Below are positions 3,639-42,666 of a stretch of 42,666 nucleotides of DNA, in pieces. This DNA comes from Candidatus Peribacteraceae bacterium (GTDB taxonomy: Bacteria > Patescibacteriota > Gracilibacteria > Peribacterales > Peribacteraceae), in contig JAQTQU010000005.1 in the NCBI GenBank assembly GCA_028712095.1, positions 1 through 42,666 of the forward strand, written 5' to 3'. The translations under genes were made by a program, and so were the position numbers. Below the pieces are notes generated by a model. It was not told the origin of the DNA. It worked only from the letters and a program-made list of their open reading frames with translations, and made no database searches. Every line of letters begins with the position of its first letter. Within the stretch, counting starts at the first letter, position 1.

Positions 3639-3695
3639 GATGAAGAAGTCTGCTAGGATTGATCTCCGCTCCCTGTGGCTCTAAAAGCTATTCTC

Positions 3696-3704
3696 TGGTA
3701 TACT
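3696..3704 (+). promoter_or_regulatory. Extended -10 promoter before the sortase gene
   Basis: TGG directly followed by TATACT (3699-3704) forms an extended -10 element. Transcription should begin at about 3710-3712, on top of the proposed GTG at 3708. No good -35 is present. Confidence 0.55.
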
Positions 3705-3707
3705 ACC

Positions 3708-4931
3708 GTGATTCCTCTCGATCGCCACCCGCACCGGCAGCATGCTGCAAATTACGACTCTGAGGGAAACATCATCCTCCCCATGGAGGCACCCTCGTCT
3801 GCTGCGCGGGAAACACCTGCCACTGTACCGTTCAAGCCGGTAGAGCAGACACAAGAGAGAGCCCTTCCAAAAGAGAAAAAAAAGGCATTTCCATCCTGGA
3901 TCCCGCGGCTCCGGTCCGCAGTTGCTTCACTGCCCTCTCACGCTTCGGCAAATGCGAATGAATTGCTGCAGGAAACCGCACGCCAGTACCGTCAGAGTGC
4001 GGAGGGATGCAAAGCGATATCCCAGCGCACGTGTCGGGGACTGAGGGGGACCGCGGGGCATGTTTGGGCATTCCTCGTGCAACCGGTATGGGTGGTGCGA
4101 CCAAAGCGTGAGCCCAAGCGCTACAGCAGAATCGTCCTTTTTTTCATCGATACTGTCCGCTTCGGCGGAACATTCGCCGCGCTCTTCGTCTCGCTCTTCG
4201 TCTCGCTCAATTACCAGAGTTTCTGGCAGATCATTCAGACGAGACTGGACCCCCTGCAGGAAATCCGAACAGAGACGGGTTTGGGAGCAGGAACAACGGC
4301 AGAGCTCCGGGAGAAGCTGCTCAAATCCCCCATGCTCACAACCGCAGGCAGTCAGGAGAACAGCAGCCTCTTGAGCTTTCTCCCTCCCGTGGGTCCGCCG
4401 GAAGACCGCCTGATCATCCCGAAATTGAATCTGAATGTCCCCATTGTCATCCCTCCCTACGAAGCTCTGCTGCGCGAAGATTGGACGCAGGTGGAAACTG
4501 ACATTCAGCAATCACTCGAAAAAGGCGTCGTGCACTATCCGGGTACAGCCAAACCCGGACAGGCCGGCAACTTCTTCATGACCGGACACAGTTCCTATTA
4601 CCCATGGGCACCGGGCAATTACAAAAACGTCTTCGCAAGACTCCACATGCTCTCTGAGGGTGATGACTACTGGGTGTACTACGGCGGAGACAAGCATCGT
4701 TACATCGTGCGTTCGATCACCGAAGTGAAACCCTCCAACGTGGACGTACTCGATCAGCCCGCCGACCGGAGGTTGAGCACACTCATGACCTGCACTCCCG
4801 TGGGAACGACCTTACGCCGCCTGATCGTTGCGGCAGAAGAAGTAGATCCCGAAACTGCAGAGCCGCTCGCCGTCGGGCAGCAACCCGTACGTGAACAGCC
4901 CAAGTACAAGATGGAGATGCTGCCCATCTGA
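3708..4931 (+). CDS. Membrane-anchored sortase (class D/E-like)
   Basis: A cysteine transpeptidase predicted to join LPxTG-like proteins to a surface acceptor. A long charged N-terminal region precedes one membrane span (about 141-170, LFFIDTVRFGGTFAALFVSLFVSL). The sortase beta-barrel follows (about 225-390), with catalytic His294 in FMTGHSSYYPW, Cys362 in LMTCTPVG and Arg370/371 in TTLRRL. The frame is open back to 3675, but the extended -10 at 3696-3704 makes a GTG at 3708 the better start; ATG at 3783 is an alternative. Possible substrates are the proteins at 13813-15498 and 15495-16541, which end in P-x-T-G-like motifs plus a membrane segment. Confidence 0.9.
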   Translation: MIPLDRHPHRQHAANYDSEGNIILPMEAPSSAARETPATVPFKPVEQTQERALPKEKKKAFPSWIPRLRSAVASLPSHASANANELLQETARQYRQSAEGCKAISQRTCRGLRGTAGHVWAFLVQPVWVVRPKREPKRYSRIVLFFIDTVRFGGTFAALFVSLFVSLNYQSFWQIIQTRLDPLQEIRTETGLGAGTTAELREKLLKSPMLTTAGSQENSSLLSFLPPVGPPEDRLIIPKLNLNVPIVIPPYEALLREDWTQVETDIQQSLEKGVVHYPGTAKPGQAGNFFMTGHSSYYPWAPGNYKNVFARLHMLSEGDDYWVYYGGDKHRYIVRSITEVKPSNVDVLDQPADRRLSTLMTCTPVGTTLRRLIVAAEEVDPETAEPLAVGQQPVREQPKYKMEMLPI

Positions 4932-36442: not shown

Positions 36443-36880
36443 ATGAACAAGGCAGATACCATCGAATATCGCATCGGAGCACTGGAACTCACTCCGGGAT
36501 TCCTCCCGTACGACGACACTGAGGCAAACAACCTTGAAGTCGATGATACCCCCTTCCATCTCTTCATCGTTTCGGTGCGGGGAAACATTGCTTCGCTCTT
36601 CGTGGGCAGTCCTCGTGGGCACTTGGCGCTCGCGCGTATGAATTCTCTCAACGCAGACAATGTCAAAGGCGGCGGCTTCTGTTACATCGACCCCGGGCAC
36701 CGACTCACGCTCGCGGGGTTCTCCGGCTCCTTCGGCGCGATTTCCAAGGCACTTGCCGAACGATTCTGTGACCTCCTCGCTCCCGCTCTGAAGGAGCGCT
36801 CAATCCCGTTCGAGGGAACGAAAGCGGAACCGGACGAACGGAGGATCAATGAATGCTGGAGGGCATTCACAGCGCAGTGA
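36443..36880 (+). CDS. Small protein resembling PHPT1/Janus phosphohistidine phosphatases
   Basis: A 145-residue soluble protein. Its C-terminal half reads KGGGFCYIDPGHRLTLAGFS followed by GSFGAISKALAERF. The GGG, then a strand, then xGxSxxFG order resembles the 14-kDa phosphohistidine phosphatase (PHPT1/Janus) pattern, in which a catalytic His precedes GGGRI and YGYS.aYG. Here His60 precedes Gly76-78 by 16 residues, against about 22 in PHPT1. The resemblance is from memory and weak. The TTG at 36422 is an alternative start, but the promoter favours ATG 36443. The 3' end overlaps the convergent helicase gene by 14 bases. Confidence 0.6.
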   Translation: MNKADTIEYRIGALELTPGFLPYDDTEANNLEVDDTPFHLFIVSVRGNIASLFVGSPRGHLALARMNSLNADNVKGGGFCYIDPGHRLTLAGFSGSFGAISKALAERFCDLLAPALKERSIPFEGTKAEPDERRINECWRAFTAQ

Positions 36881-39845
36881 AATCCAGCGCCGTGATCTTG
36901 GCCCAGACTTGCTTGATAAGAGCCTTCAGCTCGTTCACTTCCTGCTGCGTGATCTCAAAACTGATCTCCCGCCGCGCCTCATCCTCATTGCCGATGAAAT
37001 CCAGGGTGAAGCGTTTCGCCTCGTGAATAAACTTGGGATCGGCAGAGCAGAGGATCTTGTAGAACGCAATCTGCCGGAAAAGATCCTCCTTTTTGCGGAC
37101 GGCATCCTCCGTCTTTTTGGTCTGGCCGGTCTTGTAATCCAGAATGCGGCACTCTCTGCCGTTCGGTTCAAAGAGGTCGATGCGGTCGACCTTGCCCTTG
37201 ATCGGCACGTCATCCACCACCGCGTGGAACGTCCGTTCCGTCGAGAGCACGAGCGGAATGCCGGAGGAAGTTTGCTCGCCGTACCGACGCACGATATCGC
37301 CGCCAATCAGCCGGTAATGCTCCCATTCGTCTTTCGTGAGGATTTCCCGTTTCAGATGATTCTGGAAGGCATCCACCAGCGCATCAACGGAGAATGCCTC
37401 CCCCTGCTGCCACGCGGCGTTCCTCTCTTCCAGAGAGGCGTGGACCGCGGTGCCGAAGGCAAGGGCGGGTTTCTTCTCGCTTGGCATCTGGAGCAGCTGC
37501 TCCCAGAGAAATTTCTGCGGACCGTCCTCTTTGTCCAGAAACACATTGAGGGCCGTGACGGAGAGCTCGTACTCCTGCAGGCGCTCCAGCAGGAATGCAC
37601 GAAAAGCCGCATCAATGACCAGCGGCGGCGTGCGCAAGGTCTCGATGGGTAGCGGCAGTTGCTCCTGCGTCAGCGTGACTTCGTCTATGTGTTCTCCCGC
37701 CTCCGCGACGAAGCTGCTGACTTGTGCATCGCGCATCTGCTCGCCGCTGCGATACGTCTCGGGGAACGCAAGATACAGTGCGCGTCTCGCACGCGTCATC
37801 GCCACGAAGAAGAGTCTGCGCTCATCCTCCTGTCCCGCCCTCTTCTCGACCTCTTTGTCGATGCCGATGATCAGGTGGTCGGGCAGCGCGAGCGCATTGC
37901 CGCTGTTCCTGTTCCCCCAGTTGCGGTACCGCACATCCGGAACGATTACCAGATCAAATTCCAGCCCCTTGGCCCCGTGGCCGGTCATCAGCTGCACGCC
38001 ATCCTGCGTAAGATGCGGGAGGTCATACTCCAGTCTCAGTTTCTTCTCGTTCATGTACTGATCGATATCGGACAGCAGTGAGGCCAGCGACGTTGTCTTC
38101 ACCTCATAACAACGGCTCTTCACGTACTCATAGAACGCATGCAGGCCTGCAATGACGCGCGGATCCGCCTGCTTGGCCTCCATGGGCGGCAGAAGACCGG
38201 ACTCCGTCAGGACATGTGCAACGAGCGCCGTGAGCGTGACACCGGGGATGCTCTGGTGCATTTTCATGATGAATTCGTGCGCTTTCTTGATTGTTGCCGG
38301 GAGCACTGACTCCTTCAGCAGATACTCGTGCAGGCTGACTTTCTCTTTCGTACGCTTGAAGGTGCGGAAATCCATGAAGAGCCTGCCTAATTCCGCCGGA
38401 TGACACTGAAAGCACGGCAGGGCCAACGCTCCCGCAAGCAGGCTGGAATGCTCCTGTTCATGAATGGCACGGAGCAGCATCACCGCCTGCAGAACCTGCG
38501 GGTGCTGGATCAGATCCTGCTTGGCGACGACGACCGTGGGAACACCGGCAGCGGTCAACGTGTCCGCGATCTCCAGCACTTCCTCGTTCCTGCGGCAGAT
38601 GACCGCCATTTCCTTCCAGGCAGTCCCCTCTTTCCTGCCGTTGCGAAGAATACCCACGATCCCCGCATACTCCGTGCTCGTATCGGGATAGCGGATGAAT
38701 TGCGGTTTTTTGCCGCCTTTCTGCCTGCCTGCGACCAGATTTTTCTCAATACCTTTGATCACATGGACCAGACGCTCCTCATTGGCGGCAATCACGGCGG
38801 AAGCGGAATCCAATATCGGCTGGGTGGAGCGGTAATTCGTCGCGAGCGTCATCACCGCCGTCCGGGGGAACCTCTCAAGAAAAGACTTCATATTGCCGAT
38901 ATTCGCGCCCTGAAAGCGGAAAATCGCCTGATCATCGTCGCCGACGACGAAGATATTGGGATCCTGCTGGACGTGCGCATACGTCGTGAGCAGATCGAGG
39001 AGACGGTTCTGCGCTCCGTTGAGGTCCTGAAACTCGTCAACCAGAATGTACTGGTAGCGCTCCTGCAGGGATTCGAGCAGCCATTCGTGCTCTTGCAGCG
39101 CCTCAAGCGCGATGAGCACCATATCGTCGAAGTCGTACCGGTGTGATGCGGCCAGCTCCCCGCTATATGCCGTGTAAACCGTGATGAATTCCCGGAACTG
39201 CTGCACCTTCCTCAGATCATCCTTGTACGCCTTGCTCGTGGGATCTCTGTCTCTGCCTGTGGGCGTCTTTTTGAGCTCCTCCGCGTAGACCTCCACGTGT
39301 TTCAACAGGTCGTCGGGCGCGATCCCCTCTTTCTTCATCTGCGTGATGCGACCGAGCACGTCCGCGGCCCGGTCGTGCTCCGCGACGGGCATGTAGAGCT
39401 CGGATCGCTGCCCAAGCTCTTTGATCGCTCTGCGGACGATCTGCAGTTGCTCGATAGAGCTGACCTGCTCAAGGGCCCGGAAGTTCACGAACACATGCGG
39501 GTACTGCTGGATCAGGTCGTTACAGAAACTGTGCACGGTGCTTACGGTGACCCCGTAGGCATCGCTTCCGATGATCTTTCGCAACCGCTCGCGCATCGCC
39601 TTCGCTCCCGAAGTGGAGAACGTGAGGCAGAGGATGTTCGTCGGGCGCATTTGGGTACGACGCAGGATGTTCGCCGTGCGCATGGCCAAGACCTCGGTTT
39701 TGCCCGTCCCCGGCCCCGCCACCACCATCACCGGGCCTTCAATCGTCTCGACCGCGCGCTTCTGCCCTTCGTTCAGACCGGCAAAACGCTCCTCGAATGC
39801 TTTGGAGGACAAAGCGCGAACGGCCGCCTGCTGCTTCTTTCGCAT
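36867..39845 (-). CDS. UvrD/Rep-family helicase with C-terminal RecB-like nuclease
   Basis: A 992-residue superfamily 1A helicase. Motif I is AGPGTGKTEVL (43-53), II is VDEFQDLN, III is VGDDDQAIFRFQGAN, IV has NYRS, V is GHGAKGLEFDLVIVPDV and VI is VAMTRARRALYL. The last 250 residues form a PD-(D/E)XK nuclease: HASLEER, GKVDRIDLFE and ILDYKTGQTKK carry the active-site acids and Lys. The layout is that of AddA/AdnA-like end-processing enzymes for double-strand break repair. The frame is open to 40049, but TATGCT six bases before ATG 39845 sets the start, and the longer form would run through the next gene. Confidence 0.93.
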   Translation of the reverse strand: MRKKQQAAVRALSSKAFEERFAGLNEGQKRAVETIEGPVMVVAGPGTGKTEVLAMRTANILRRTQMRPTNILCLTFSTSGAKAMRERLRKIIGSDAYGVTVSTVHSFCNDLIQQYPHVFVNFRALEQVSSIEQLQIVRRAIKELGQRSELYMPVAEHDRAADVLGRITQMKKEGIAPDDLLKHVEVYAEELKKTPTGRDRDPTSKAYKDDLRKVQQFREFITVYTAYSGELAASHRYDFDDMVLIALEALQEHEWLLESLQERYQYILVDEFQDLNGAQNRLLDLLTTYAHVQQDPNIFVVGDDDQAIFRFQGANIGNMKSFLERFPRTAVMTLATNYRSTQPILDSASAVIAANEERLVHVIKGIEKNLVAGRQKGGKKPQFIRYPDTSTEYAGIVGILRNGRKEGTAWKEMAVICRRNEEVLEIADTLTAAGVPTVVVAKQDLIQHPQVLQAVMLLRAIHEQEHSSLLAGALALPCFQCHPAELGRLFMDFRTFKRTKEKVSLHEYLLKESVLPATIKKAHEFIMKMHQSIPGVTLTALVAHVLTESGLLPPMEAKQADPRVIAGLHAFYEYVKSRCYEVKTTSLASLLSDIDQYMNEKKLRLEYDLPHLTQDGVQLMTGHGAKGLEFDLVIVPDVRYRNWGNRNSGNALALPDHLIIGIDKEVEKRAGQEDERRLFFVAMTRARRALYLAFPETYRSGEQMRDAQVSSFVAEAGEHIDEVTLTQEQLPLPIETLRTPPLVIDAAFRAFLLERLQEYELSVTALNVFLDKEDGPQKFLWEQLLQMPSEKKPALAFGTAVHASLEERNAAWQQGEAFSVDALVDAFQNHLKREILTKDEWEHYRLIGGDIVRRYGEQTSSGIPLVLSTERTFHAVVDDVPIKGKVDRIDLFEPNGRECRILDYKTGQTKKTEDAVRKKEDLFRQIAFYKILCSADPKFIHEAKRFTLDFIGNEDEARREISFEITQQEVNELKALIKQVWAKITALDFTAL

Positions 39846-39851
39846 GCGGGA

Positions 39852-39857
39852 AGCATA
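39852..39857 (-). promoter_or_regulatory. -10 box of the helicase gene (leaderless)
   Basis: On the minus strand TATGCT is followed by exactly six bases and ATG 39845. No good -35 is seen; the upstream small gene may also co-transcribe it. Confidence 0.45.
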
Positions 39858-39876
39858 GCATTCTTCCGCACCGGAC

Positions 39877-40089
39877 TTACACGATTGCATCGATCGCCAT
39901 CTGCCCTGCGCCATCCTTATGAACACGTACATGCAGAACCTGCCCGACCGAAAACCGCACCTTGGCCTGAGGGTAATGGAGAACATGGGCTTTCTCCGTT
40001 GTGTCCGTGATCTCGACACGCGCGTCTTCCACGCGGGTGACGTGGCCATCGAGGTAATTCATCTTTGCGGCATCAGGAGTATCTGACAT
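39877..40089 (-). CDS. Small beta-barrel protein (DUF3006-like)
   Basis: A 70-residue protein with a run of short strands: YLDGHVTRVEDARVEI, KAHVLHYPQAKV and SVGQVLHVRVHKDG. This suggests a small SH3- or OB-like barrel, somewhat like DUF3006 proteins, which have no known function. It lies directly upstream of the helicase gene on the same strand and may be co-expressed. ATG 40089 follows a promoter at 40114-40141 with a 24-base pyrimidine-rich stretch. The frame is open to 40200, but that part would overlap the SGNH gene end. Confidence 0.6.
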   Translation of the reverse strand: MSDTPDAAKMNYLDGHVTRVEDARVEITDTTEKAHVLHYPQAKVRFSVGQVLHVRVHKDGAGQMAIDAIV

Positions 40090-40113
40090 AACGGAGGGAG
40101 GAAAAGAGGCGAC

Positions 40114-40141
40114 AGGATACCCGCCATGGCGAACAGGGCAA
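40114..40141 (-). promoter_or_regulatory. Promoter of the small beta-barrel gene
   Basis: On the minus strand TTGCCC (40136-40141), a 16-base spacer and TATCCT (40114-40119). Confidence 0.5.
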
Positions 40142-40165
40142 GCGAATAGCGCGGCTACCAACTCT

Positions 40166-40288
40166 TCAGCTCCCGCACGTGATCCCAAGCCACTTCGCAA
40201 GACGCCGGAGAACGGAAACGCGCCGCGGAGAGTCGACAGGAATCCAGCGGTCTACACGGGCGCAGATGCGCTCCGTACGGGAGGGAGA
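40166..40288 (-). other. Conserved 40-residue C-terminal module, copy 1
   Basis: Encodes SPSRTERICARVDRW, then IPVDSPRR and VLRRLAKWLGI up to the stop. DNA similarity to copy 2 (42044-42166) continues into the Ser-rich linker (to about 40399), interrupted by length differences. It is basic and amphipathic, with no membrane span. Confidence 0.8.
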
Positions 40289-41863
40289 CTCCGCGGAAAC
40301 GGCAGACGAGGATGATGCGCCCTCGGCGGCGGTGAAGGACGGAGAGCTTGCCTGCGAAGTATTGAGGAGGCGGTAGGGATCGGAAGAAGAGGACGAACCC
40401 AGGGTTCCGCTCCCGCCGACGGCTGCAGCTTGCTGCTCAAGTTCCTGCTCGTACTCCTGCCACCATGCATCGAACGACTGCCTCGCCGCGGCAGCGCCGT
40501 TGGACGAAAAGGTAACGGTAATAGTGTGGTCTGCCGTAACATCAGAAAATGTATAAGAATCTGAAACTACTACACTTACCCCATCCACTAAAATGTCCAC
40601 GATAGTACGATTTGCTGCAGGCATTATGGTAAATGTCTGAGACGATCCTTCATCGACGTCTGTCGCTCCTGTAGGATCAATCGCACCACCCGCCCCCGCG
40701 CTTGCCGTAATAGTCCAATTGGGCTTTATCGGAATTCCATAGAAAGACTCTAATGCGTTAAGCCACAGAGACCACAAAACATATACTCCCCCGGTAGTGG
40801 GATGCACGCCATCAAAAGTGTATATTGGCAATAAATCATCAAGTTCCCCGGTTGACACTCTGATTTGCCCCATTGAATCGTGGCTGCTTATTAAATGAGC
40901 ATTATTCTCCGCACACCATGTCGCCAGGTTCGCGTTCCAGGTCCGAACCGTATCGGCCTGAGCATCACTGCCGTTTGTCCATGGCAGGATTTCATCAATG
41001 AAGAGATCTTGGTTCGTCAGCAATGCCTTAATACTATTGAGATCTGCAAGAACATCGGCCCAGGTTCTTCCGGTATTGATGTCATTGACTCCCGCATGAA
41101 TAATTATCGTTCTGGCGCCTGAAGCAATGGCGCAAGGAACTCCGGTGGAGAGCGCCCACGCAAATGTTGTATCGCCCAGTGCGCAATCCACTGGGATAAT
41201 TCCAGAGGATGCAAGCGAATGACCGCTTGGTGTATCCCCCGGATAAGTATCGGGAAAGTATATTGCTTGATGTTGAGCAATAGAATCACCGGTAACTGCC
41301 ACACTTCTTGGATTCCAATTTACAGTTGCGGCTGTAATCTTGCGGACTGTAATGTTAGAAACCGATCCTATGAATGTGTCCGACCCACTTATGAAGATTG
41401 CGGATGAACCCCCAGAGAAATAAATGATTTCCCGAAAGGTCCCGGGGCCGTACCTATGCGCAGAGTAGTCGGTCCATCCCTGTACCCGAATAGCCCCACT
41501 GGTATAGTCAGAAACCGTGTAGATGAATTCATAGTAGGAATCCGCATCAAGCGCAGTATTCTGTCTAAATAGGCCATTTCCTGTCCAATTTGCTTTTCCA
41601 TCGCTAATCGTTCCTCCTGCCGGTTTGATCCAGTCGGAATCGGCATCAAATGACCCATTTACTACAACATTTGGACCAACAGTTGCTCCTTCTTCCGTAC
41701 GAAAGGTTGTCCTCGTGATCCCCCACGCAGTGCCGGCAAAACCGAACATTCCGATAAAAAATAAGGAGGCGACAATCGTTCGACGCAGGAAACGAGCACA
41801 GCATCTACTACTCAGCGTTCTACCGCCTCCGCTGCAACAGTGACCCCCCCCCCAGAAGAACAT
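40166..41863 (-). CDS. Secreted SGNH/GDSL hydrolase with conserved C-terminal module
   Basis: A 565-residue secreted esterase-type protein. The signal peptide lies at about 27-48 (TIVASLFFIGMFGFAGTAWG). A carbohydrate-binding-like beta domain spans about 60-178. The SGNH hydrolase domain follows: Ser194 in TGDSIAQH, Asn260 in HAGVNDI, and Asp351/His354 in DGVHP. An InlB-type repeat lies near 388-463, then a Gln/Ser linker and a 40-residue tail (526-565) almost identical to that of the next gene. It may deacetylate or cleave surface glycans. A run of ten G falls in codons 4-7, so the start region may be unstable. TATCCA lies six bases before the ATG. Confidence 0.88.
   Translation of the reverse strand: MFFWGGGHCCSGGGRTLSSRCCARFLRRTIVASLFFIGMFGFAGTAWGITRTTFRTEEGATVGPNVVVNGSFDADSDWIKPAGGTISDGKANWTGNGLFRQNTALDADSYYEFIYTVSDYTSGAIRVQGWTDYSAHRYGPGTFREIIYFSGGSSAIFISGSDTFIGSVSNITVRKITAATVNWNPRSVAVTGDSIAQHQAIYFPDTYPGDTPSGHSLASSGIIPVDCALGDTTFAWALSTGVPCAIASGARTIIIHAGVNDINTGRTWADVLADLNSIKALLTNQDLFIDEILPWTNGSDAQADTVRTWNANLATWCAENNAHLISSHDSMGQIRVSTGELDDLLPIYTFDGVHPTTGGVYVLWSLWLNALESFYGIPIKPNWTITASAGAGGAIDPTGATDVDEGSSQTFTIMPAANRTIVDILVDGVSVVVSDSYTFSDVTADHTITVTFSSNGAAAARQSFDAWWQEYEQELEQQAAAVGGSGTLGSSSSSDPYRLLNTSQASSPSFTAAEGASSSSAVSAESPSRTERICARVDRWIPVDSPRRVSVLRRLAKWLGITCGS
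41844..41853 (-). repeat. Homopolymer tract of ten G in the SGNH coding start
   Basis: Ten C on the plus strand (G on the coding strand) lie about 10-20 bases into the frame. A second run of eight C lies upstream at 41906-41913. Such tracts can vary by slippage or be miscounted in sequencing. Confidence 0.7.
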
Positions 41864-42043
41864 TTCGGCTGGATAATGTCATCACCCCGAAAGTGTACCA
41901 CGAGACCCCCCCCGCAACATCACCTCAATATCCCGAACCCTGTCCCGTCAAAACCAGATCAATAATCAGCAACCGGCTTCTCTACCAGCTCTTCAGCTCA
42001 TACGCGCAGTGGTCGCACTTCTTGAGGGATTTGCCCTCCGGCC
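41864..42043. other. Intergenic region between the two module-bearing genes
   Basis: Holds no gene I can support. It contains an eight-C run, the possible TATCCA -10 of the SGNH gene and the out-of-frame remnant after copy 2. Confidence 0.5.
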
Positions 42044-42166
42044 TCAGCCACCGCAGGAAATTCCAAGCCACTTCGCAAGACGCCTGAGAACGGAAACGCG
42101 TCGCGGAGAGTCAACAGGAATCCAGCGGTCCACCCGGGCGCAGATGCGCTCCGTGCGGGATGGAGA
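42044..42166 (-). other. Conserved 40-residue C-terminal module, copy 2
   Basis: Nearly identical in protein to copy 1; the differences are confined to the last few residues (GISCGG against GITCGS). Past the stop, another frame reads EGKSLKKCDHCAYELKSW to a stop at 41982. The last 18 bases of that frame recur after copy 1 (40155-40172). Confidence 0.75.
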
Positions 42167-42666
42167 CTGTACAGAGACAGCAGATGAAGATGATGCGCCC
42201 ACAGAGGAAACGGAGGAGGAGCTTGCCTGTGAAGTATTGAGGAGGCGGTAGGGATCGGAAGAAGAGGAAGACGACGAGAAAGAAGAAACGGACGATGTGG
42301 AGGAGGCTGAAGAGGTCTGGCTGCCGTTCTCCCACCACTCGACAAAATCAGAGGGGGCGATGCCATCCTCGTACAGACGGCGCCAGTAGTTGGCGGCTCC
42401 GCCAGCGCCGAGGGAGGTCGAGGTGACGGTATGCGTCAGGCTAGCGGAGGTGGAAGTGGTGTAGTTGGTGTCGCCCTCATAGACCGCCGTAATTGTGTGA
42501 GTACCAGCACTCAAGCTCGTCGTCGGGTACGTGCCGCTCCCCTGGCCAAGCGTGGCGGTCCCCAGGGTTGTTCCGCCGTCCTTGAACGTGACGTTGCCGG
42601 TAGGGGAATCAGCTCCTGGCGTCACCGGTGTGACCGTGGCTGTGAACGTGACAGCCTGGCCGAAGG
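42044..42666 (-). CDS. Secreted Ig-like-domain protein, partial (5' end beyond window)
   Basis: The frame stays open to the window edge, so the N-terminus is missing; the GTG at 42625 is an internal codon. The visible part begins with a bacterial Ig-like domain of the Big_3_5 type (FGQAVTFTATVTP, GNVTFKDGGTTLGTATL, LSAGTHTITAVYEGD). A short region with FVEWWENG, a Ser-rich linker and the 40-residue C-terminal module shared with the SGNH hydrolase follow. It is probably a large cell-surface or secreted adhesin-like protein. The stop is TGA at 42044-42046. Confidence 0.85.
   Translation of the reverse strand, partial: FGQAVTFTATVTPVTPGADSPTGNVTFKDGGTTLGTATLGQGSGTYPTTSLSAGTHTITAVYEGDTNYTTSTSASLTHTVTSTSLGAGGAANYWRRLYEDGIAPSDFVEWWENGSQTSSASSTSSVSSFSSSSSSSDPYRLLNTSQASSSSVSSVGASSSSAVSVQSPSRTERICARVDRWIPVDSPRRVSVLRRLAKWLGISCGG

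Follow-up and report, generated by a model that had tools for sequence, protein, structure and literature searches.

Short regions of homology at the C-termini of unrelated exported proteins are known as CTERM signals, among them PEP-CTERM, GlyGly-CTERM and MYXO-CTERM, the last of which also has an invariant cysteine (PMC1569441, PMC3237569, PMC11980579). The module described here resembles these signals in belonging to one lineage and in following a low-complexity linker, but it has no transmembrane helix, is not restricted to the C-terminus, contains two cysteines, is predicted to fold into a hairpin and is without a match in NCBIfam. PEP-CTERM/exosortase substrates end in a PEP-type motif, a transmembrane helix and a basic cluster; as evidenced by the lack of a C-terminal hydrophobic segment and by 21 tails that gave no NCBIfam match at E<=0.05, the module proteins do not belong to them. 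In the strictly C-terminal MYXO-CTERM and GlyGly-CTERM signals, a short motif with Cys or GlyGly precedes a transmembrane helix and an Arg-rich end, and the missing transmembrane helix, together with the 8 of 43 copies that are not C-terminal, likewise sets the module apart from them. With the substrates of LPxTG sortases they share that they are exported surface proteins and that sortase genes are present. Their C-termini, however, lack the succession of LPxTG motif, transmembrane segment and charged tail; an LPxTG-like pentapeptide is absent from the C-terminal sequences, as is a hydrophobic segment. The original prediction, made from the window sequence, that the tail is of neither the LPxTG nor the PEP-CTERM type is thus borne out.

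Like SLH and other non-covalent wall-binding domains, the module is small and portable and occurs at either end of diverse exported enzymes and adhesins; unlike SLH, it is a single copy of about 35 residues with an unrelated sequence that has no Pfam match. The Excalibur domain (PF05901) comprises approximately 40 residues with two cysteines and is found on bacterial surface proteins including nucleases. The module is likewise a small two-cysteine domain on surface proteins including nucleases, but it is predicted to be a basic helical hairpin, whereas Excalibur is characterized by an acidic, calcium-binding DxDxDG motif. It does not belong to that family, as its tails gave no Pfam match at E<=0.1 and a DxDxDG-type motif is absent from our alignment A5. 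From the same lineage as the window, Ca. Peribacter riflensis is known to encode large, cysteine-rich FG-GAP and lactonase-like exported proteins (PMC4736985). Their folds are similar to those of some of our partner proteins (FG-GAP, lactonase-type propeller), and no common terminal module was described for them (PMC4736985); a search of the open-licence literature returned no description of such a module either.

Two unrelated proteins with one ending

The window, i.e. the whole stretch of 42,666 nucleotides that was analysed, is an entire contig (G000:C19) from a Candidatus Peribacteraceae genome of the CPR (1.25 Mb in 67 contigs, 97.7% complete). As the window ends with the contig, the 5' end of the Ig-like gene is missing and its start lies beyond the contig end (Table 1). 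The GDSL/SGNH esterase-like protein has one N-terminal hydrophobic segment, a signal peptide, and carries the shared module at its C-terminus. With a GDSL domain in the one and a Big_3_5 domain in the other, as assigned by Pfam, the two proteins are otherwise unrelated, and their last 40 residues are identical in 38 of 40 positions, the shared ending being SPSRTERICARVDRWIPVDSPRRVSVLRRLAKWLGI[T/S]CG[S/G], in agreement with what had been noticed originally. The serine-rich linker with DPYRLLNTSQASS, which had been noted ahead of the shared tail, does precede both window copies, but it is peculiar to the window genome; DPYHLL stands in the linker of a same-genus relative, and the rest of the family uses other low-complexity linkers.

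Table 1. Coordinates of the two module genes, their parts and the adjoining helicase gene in the window
Feature	Position	Strand	Basis
UvrD/PcrA-like helicase adjoining the module genes; synteny anchor	36867..40049	-	ORF, synteny comparison
Exported GDSL/SGNH esterase-like protein, 565 aa	41863..40166	-	ORF; Pfam PF13472, E 6.3e-8
GDSL-like lipase/acylhydrolase domain PF13472	40790..41290	-	Pfam, residues 197-363 of the frame starting at 41878
Module copy 1: SPSRTERICARVDRWIPVDSPRRVSVLRRLAKWLGITCGS, invariant Cys pair at a spacing of 29	40169..40288	-	ORF, alignment, AlphaFold2
Copy 1 Ser-rich linker within duplicated DNA (SSSSDPYRLLNTSQASS...)	40289..40396	-	Local DNA alignment
Ig-like exported protein, 3' part, 206 aa	42664..42044	-	ORF; Big_3_5 PF16640, E 1.1e-22
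Big_3_5 Ig-like domain PF16640	42422..42664	-	Pfam
Gly-rich hinge and Arg/Trp helix (STSLGAGGAANYWRRLYEDGIAPSDFVEWWENG...), present too in G002 and G004	42299..42421	-	Sequence comparison
Copy 2 Ser-rich linker within duplicated DNA	42167..42271	-	Local DNA alignment
Module copy 2: SPSRTERICARVDRWIPVDSPRRVSVLRRLAKWLGISCGG	42047..42166	-	ORF, alignment

By local DNA alignment the duplicated DNA comprises approximately 230 bp (about 40166-40396 and 42044-42271), and the similarity stops exactly at the stop codons, with unrelated 3' flanks. Between the two copies, 10 of the last 40 codons carry synonymous differences and 2 carry non-synonymous ones, and the values of dN 0.023 and dS 0.44 (NG86; dN/dS about 0.05) show that the protein sequence of the module has been kept by selection. 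The pair is thus an old copying event under purifying selection and not a fresh duplication; of the recent duplication or gene conversion that had been proposed, the duplication stands and the recent date does not.

Extent, sequence and predicted fold of the family

A single-sequence search revealed one clear relative, 52% identical and located on an unrelated 767-aa protein of a same-genus genome (G004), and otherwise weak matches; below the window copies, G004, G005 and G023 the list consisted mostly of chance matches. Inspection of the weak matches did reveal distant but unmistakable members, and the family emerged only with profile searches (profiles A1, then A2, then A5), which detected 44 copies in 26 of the 74 Peribacteraceae genomes with E-values down to 1e-23. 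A 27th genome holds a true copy that is cut by the contig end (G093/L144). The module is absent from 47 of the 74 genomes and is present in 2 of the 5 of the window genus, and in the complete genome G003 of the window genus group the profile search found no copy. Genomes with the module often hold two to five module proteins, and many others have a single copy. The only copies in the window genome are the two of the window. This and the stretch of similar DNA common to them would suit a simple local duplication without wider meaning, but the copies found elsewhere in Peribacteraceae, with their invariant residues, and the low dN/dS of the window pair refute this reading and leave it practically no probability. 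The original prediction had named confinement of the tail to this locus as the finding that would speak against it, and copies exist across the family.

Beyond the family, a class-wide profile search of 353 genomes gave no match outside Peribacteraceae, a phylum sample of 380 genomes gave nothing credible, its one extra match reading as a wrong frame, and a scan of viral contigs was without a module match. When 84,980 species genomes were scanned with a stricter pattern, only four loci were returned, all of them in Peregrinibacteria. Three matches that were weak or lay outside Peribacteraceae (G390/L126, G071/L143 and G066/L145) were rejected as wrong-frame chance matches. The module profile matched no PDB sequence up to E=1, and a Foldseek search of the PDB with the predicted fold yielded only noise, with no match below E=1; the module was therefore not assigned to any family with a solved structure, and no function can be borrowed. 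It constitutes a previously unlisted domain family, absent from both Pfam and NCBIfam and confined to Peribacteraceae, in line with the lineage-specific character ascribed to it from the outset.

In the alignment of 43 sequences, residues C9, R11, R29 and C38 are invariant throughout, and R7 and an aromatic or hydrophobic position 16 are nearly so. Of the cysteine, tryptophan and arginine residues originally called conserved, the cysteines and arginines hold across the family, whereas W15 and W33 are often replaced by arginine, phenylalanine or other residues. The two cysteines are spaced by 29 in 36 of 43 sequences, and a few members have a loop that is two residues shorter. Structure prediction, suggested along with the original observation, gave a confident result: for window copy 1, AlphaFold2 yields a two-helix hairpin with helices at residues 4-15 and 21-34 (pLDDT 92), and the same hairpin is obtained for an N-terminal member (pLDDT 95). 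Four module proteins contain no cysteines beyond the two invariant ones, so that an intramolecular disulfide is the simplest reading, and the conserved pair probably closes the hairpin in this way. The module is also distinctly basic, with a mean net charge of +14.8 per 100 aa versus -2.8 for the remainder of the proteins, and 42 of 43 copies are more basic than the proteins that carry them.

In 35 of 43 sequences the module is C-terminal, at most 8 residues from the stop codon. Five others are found at the mature N-terminus, right after the hydrophobic leader (L100, L105, L109, L112 and L113), and three are internal, preceded by an N-terminal YHYH-like segment and followed by an SNase domain (L115, L116 and L117). 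With these eight, a folded domain becomes likely, and a tag for sorting or secretion that is cleaved off becomes unlikely. The idea of a C-terminal sorting, attachment or secretion tag was hence too narrow, and attachment is our best guess for the function. A single hydrophobic segment, at the N-terminus, is present in most complete module proteins; next to a C-terminal module no such segment was found, save in a VKOR-type membrane protein (L108). That the module is a small folded exported domain is well supported, and the models suggest an arginine-rich two-helix hairpin of about 35 residues.

C-terminal copies typically follow a glycine-rich hinge with a short arginine-rich helix and then a long linker rich in serine, proline, threonine and alanine. 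The motifs of the hinge helix are YWRRLYEDG, LELRRQNNLDMWG and ARxRRxxLM. Hinge and conserved helix follow the last folded domain and precede the linker in the Ig-like protein of the window as well as at L095, L111 and L118.

Partner proteins and a possible docking function

Pfam scans took in 40 of the 43 module proteins. A listing of partners across related genomes, proposed with the original observation, shows the module on many unrelated proteins: GDSL esterase, Big_3_5, Big_5, FG-GAP, LamG, C-type lectin, YncE/lactonase-type propeller, right-handed beta-helix, SNase and VKOR. Trypsin-like proteases (Trypsin_2) are partners in four genomes of four genera, and further carriers include a lipoprotein-like protein (L103) and several proteins without a Pfam match. 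The three SNase-type nucleases with an internal module come from three genomes of one genus group. Among the 40 proteins scanned no SLH domain (PF00395) was found; as a positive control, a neighbouring protein in G004 does match SLH with an E-value of 5.5e-22.

Conserved residues, diverse partners, occurrence at both termini, basic charge and the absence of a membrane anchor all support a docking function. The partner proteins would be exported by an ordinary signal peptide, with the hairpin at one end, in most cases C-terminal behind a long flexible linker and in some at the mature N-terminus. Its basic face may then bind an acidic component of the envelope, such as phospholipid head groups or a polysaccharide of the wall or surface, and so retain the attached esterase, protease, nuclease or adhesin on the cell with no covalent processing step. 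We estimate at roughly one half the probability that the exported, likely disulfide-closed basic hairpin docks its partners non-covalently in this manner, where disulfide, ligand and retention are what we infer. With 47 of 74 genomes lacking it, the module is not an essential anchor. Two carriers sit uneasily with docking. In the VKOR-type protein (L108:2550-3191 (+), G014) the module follows right after the last membrane helix. Ordinary VKOR topology would place it in the cytoplasm, a poor fit with an exported disulfide domain. For the lipoprotein-like L103, a second anchor would be unneeded, which counts against docking.

The main rival of docking is protein-protein assembly, in which the hairpin would pair with itself or with a partner protein, through helix packing or an intermolecular disulfide, and build surface complexes instead of binding a polymer. 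Short helical hairpins often dimerise, and this habit favors assembly, as do the several module proteins present in many genomes, some of them in tandem, and the fact that same-genome copies are nearest neighbours 9 times versus 1.2 expected from label shuffling. However, local copying of modules also explains this similarity, a fixed partner would have to be something else in the many genomes with a single copy, and the strong, conserved positive charge disfavors simple self-association, so that we regard assembly as unlikely. If the module were a CTERM-like tag for sorting or processing, with an enzyme of its own to recognise and cleave it, the many copies close to a stop codon, usually after a low-complexity linker, would be accounted for, and sortases are available in 73 of the 74 family genomes. 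This reading is nevertheless improbable: eight proteins have the module N-terminal or internal, no hydrophobic segment adjoins it, its confidently predicted fold is not a linear motif, and the practically universal sortases do not track a patchy module that has no recurrent partner gene except surface paralogues.

Genes for type II secretion and type IV pili have been reported in Peribacteria (PMC4736985), and the module might be an export signal for a second secretion step of that kind, read as a folded patch, which could act at either terminus. A single-membrane envelope would need no second step, though, and one to five cargo proteins per genome, patchily distributed, contrast with a machinery reported as general in the group, leaving this option only a slim chance. 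Slighter still is the prospect of an effector-like function, in which a cationic disulfide hairpin would act on or adhere to the membranes of neighbour or host cells. The module is cationic, amphipathic and probably disulfide-closed, and its carriers include adhesin-like and hydrolytic proteins; the lineage probably lives in association with hosts, symbiosis having been inferred for it (PMC4736985), but carriers such as the VKOR-type membrane protein and the lipoprotein would not act at a distance.

Possible exchange of terminal modules and genomic setting

The locus adjoining the UvrD helicase gene (window 40049-42664, set against L160, L161, L162 and L152) varies between species. Two module genes are present in the window, one surface gene in G002 and none in G001 and G003; in 2 of 5 same-genus genomes a LysE-like gene precedes the helicase with no surface gene between them. 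The syntenic protein of G002 (952 aa) shares the hinge, with 84% identity, but ends in another basic helical tail that lacks Cys, FQRVLERLQERINRRLRDHPELKTFFDRVLERAMARLER (L152:4953-7808 (+)), as would be expected for docking if the basic hairpin and not one cleavage motif is what matters. A 52% identical relative of this tail ends a Big_5 protein in G015 (L150:37-1641 (+)), and judging from these sequences the Cys-less tail is possibly a second interchangeable terminal module. Both Cys-less-tailed proteins show the same style of hinge and linker.

Module genes occur in tandem in the window and as pairs at L096 and L111, and the excess of nearest neighbours within genomes indicates that modules were copied between genes of one genome. 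Peribacteraceae may, more tentatively, own a system of non-covalent surface display in which interchangeable basic hairpins, two-Cys or, in G002 and G015, Cys-less, are copied between genes and joined, by way of a glycine hinge and a linker of low complexity, to the termini of exported enzymes and adhesins that are otherwise unrelated. The module provides a handle on the ways in which ultra-small CPR bacteria retain such proteins on their surface and engage with other cells, as its sharp signature picks out displayed proteins across the whole family without culture.

Neighbour clustering found no gene family recurring across genera except paralogous surface proteins, other recurrent neighbours being syntenic genes in single genera, and VKOR, which is rare in the family, does not track the module across genomes. 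The module genes are accessory. Note that the window contig also carries a sortase gene (PF04203, E 1e-22) at 3675-4931 (+).
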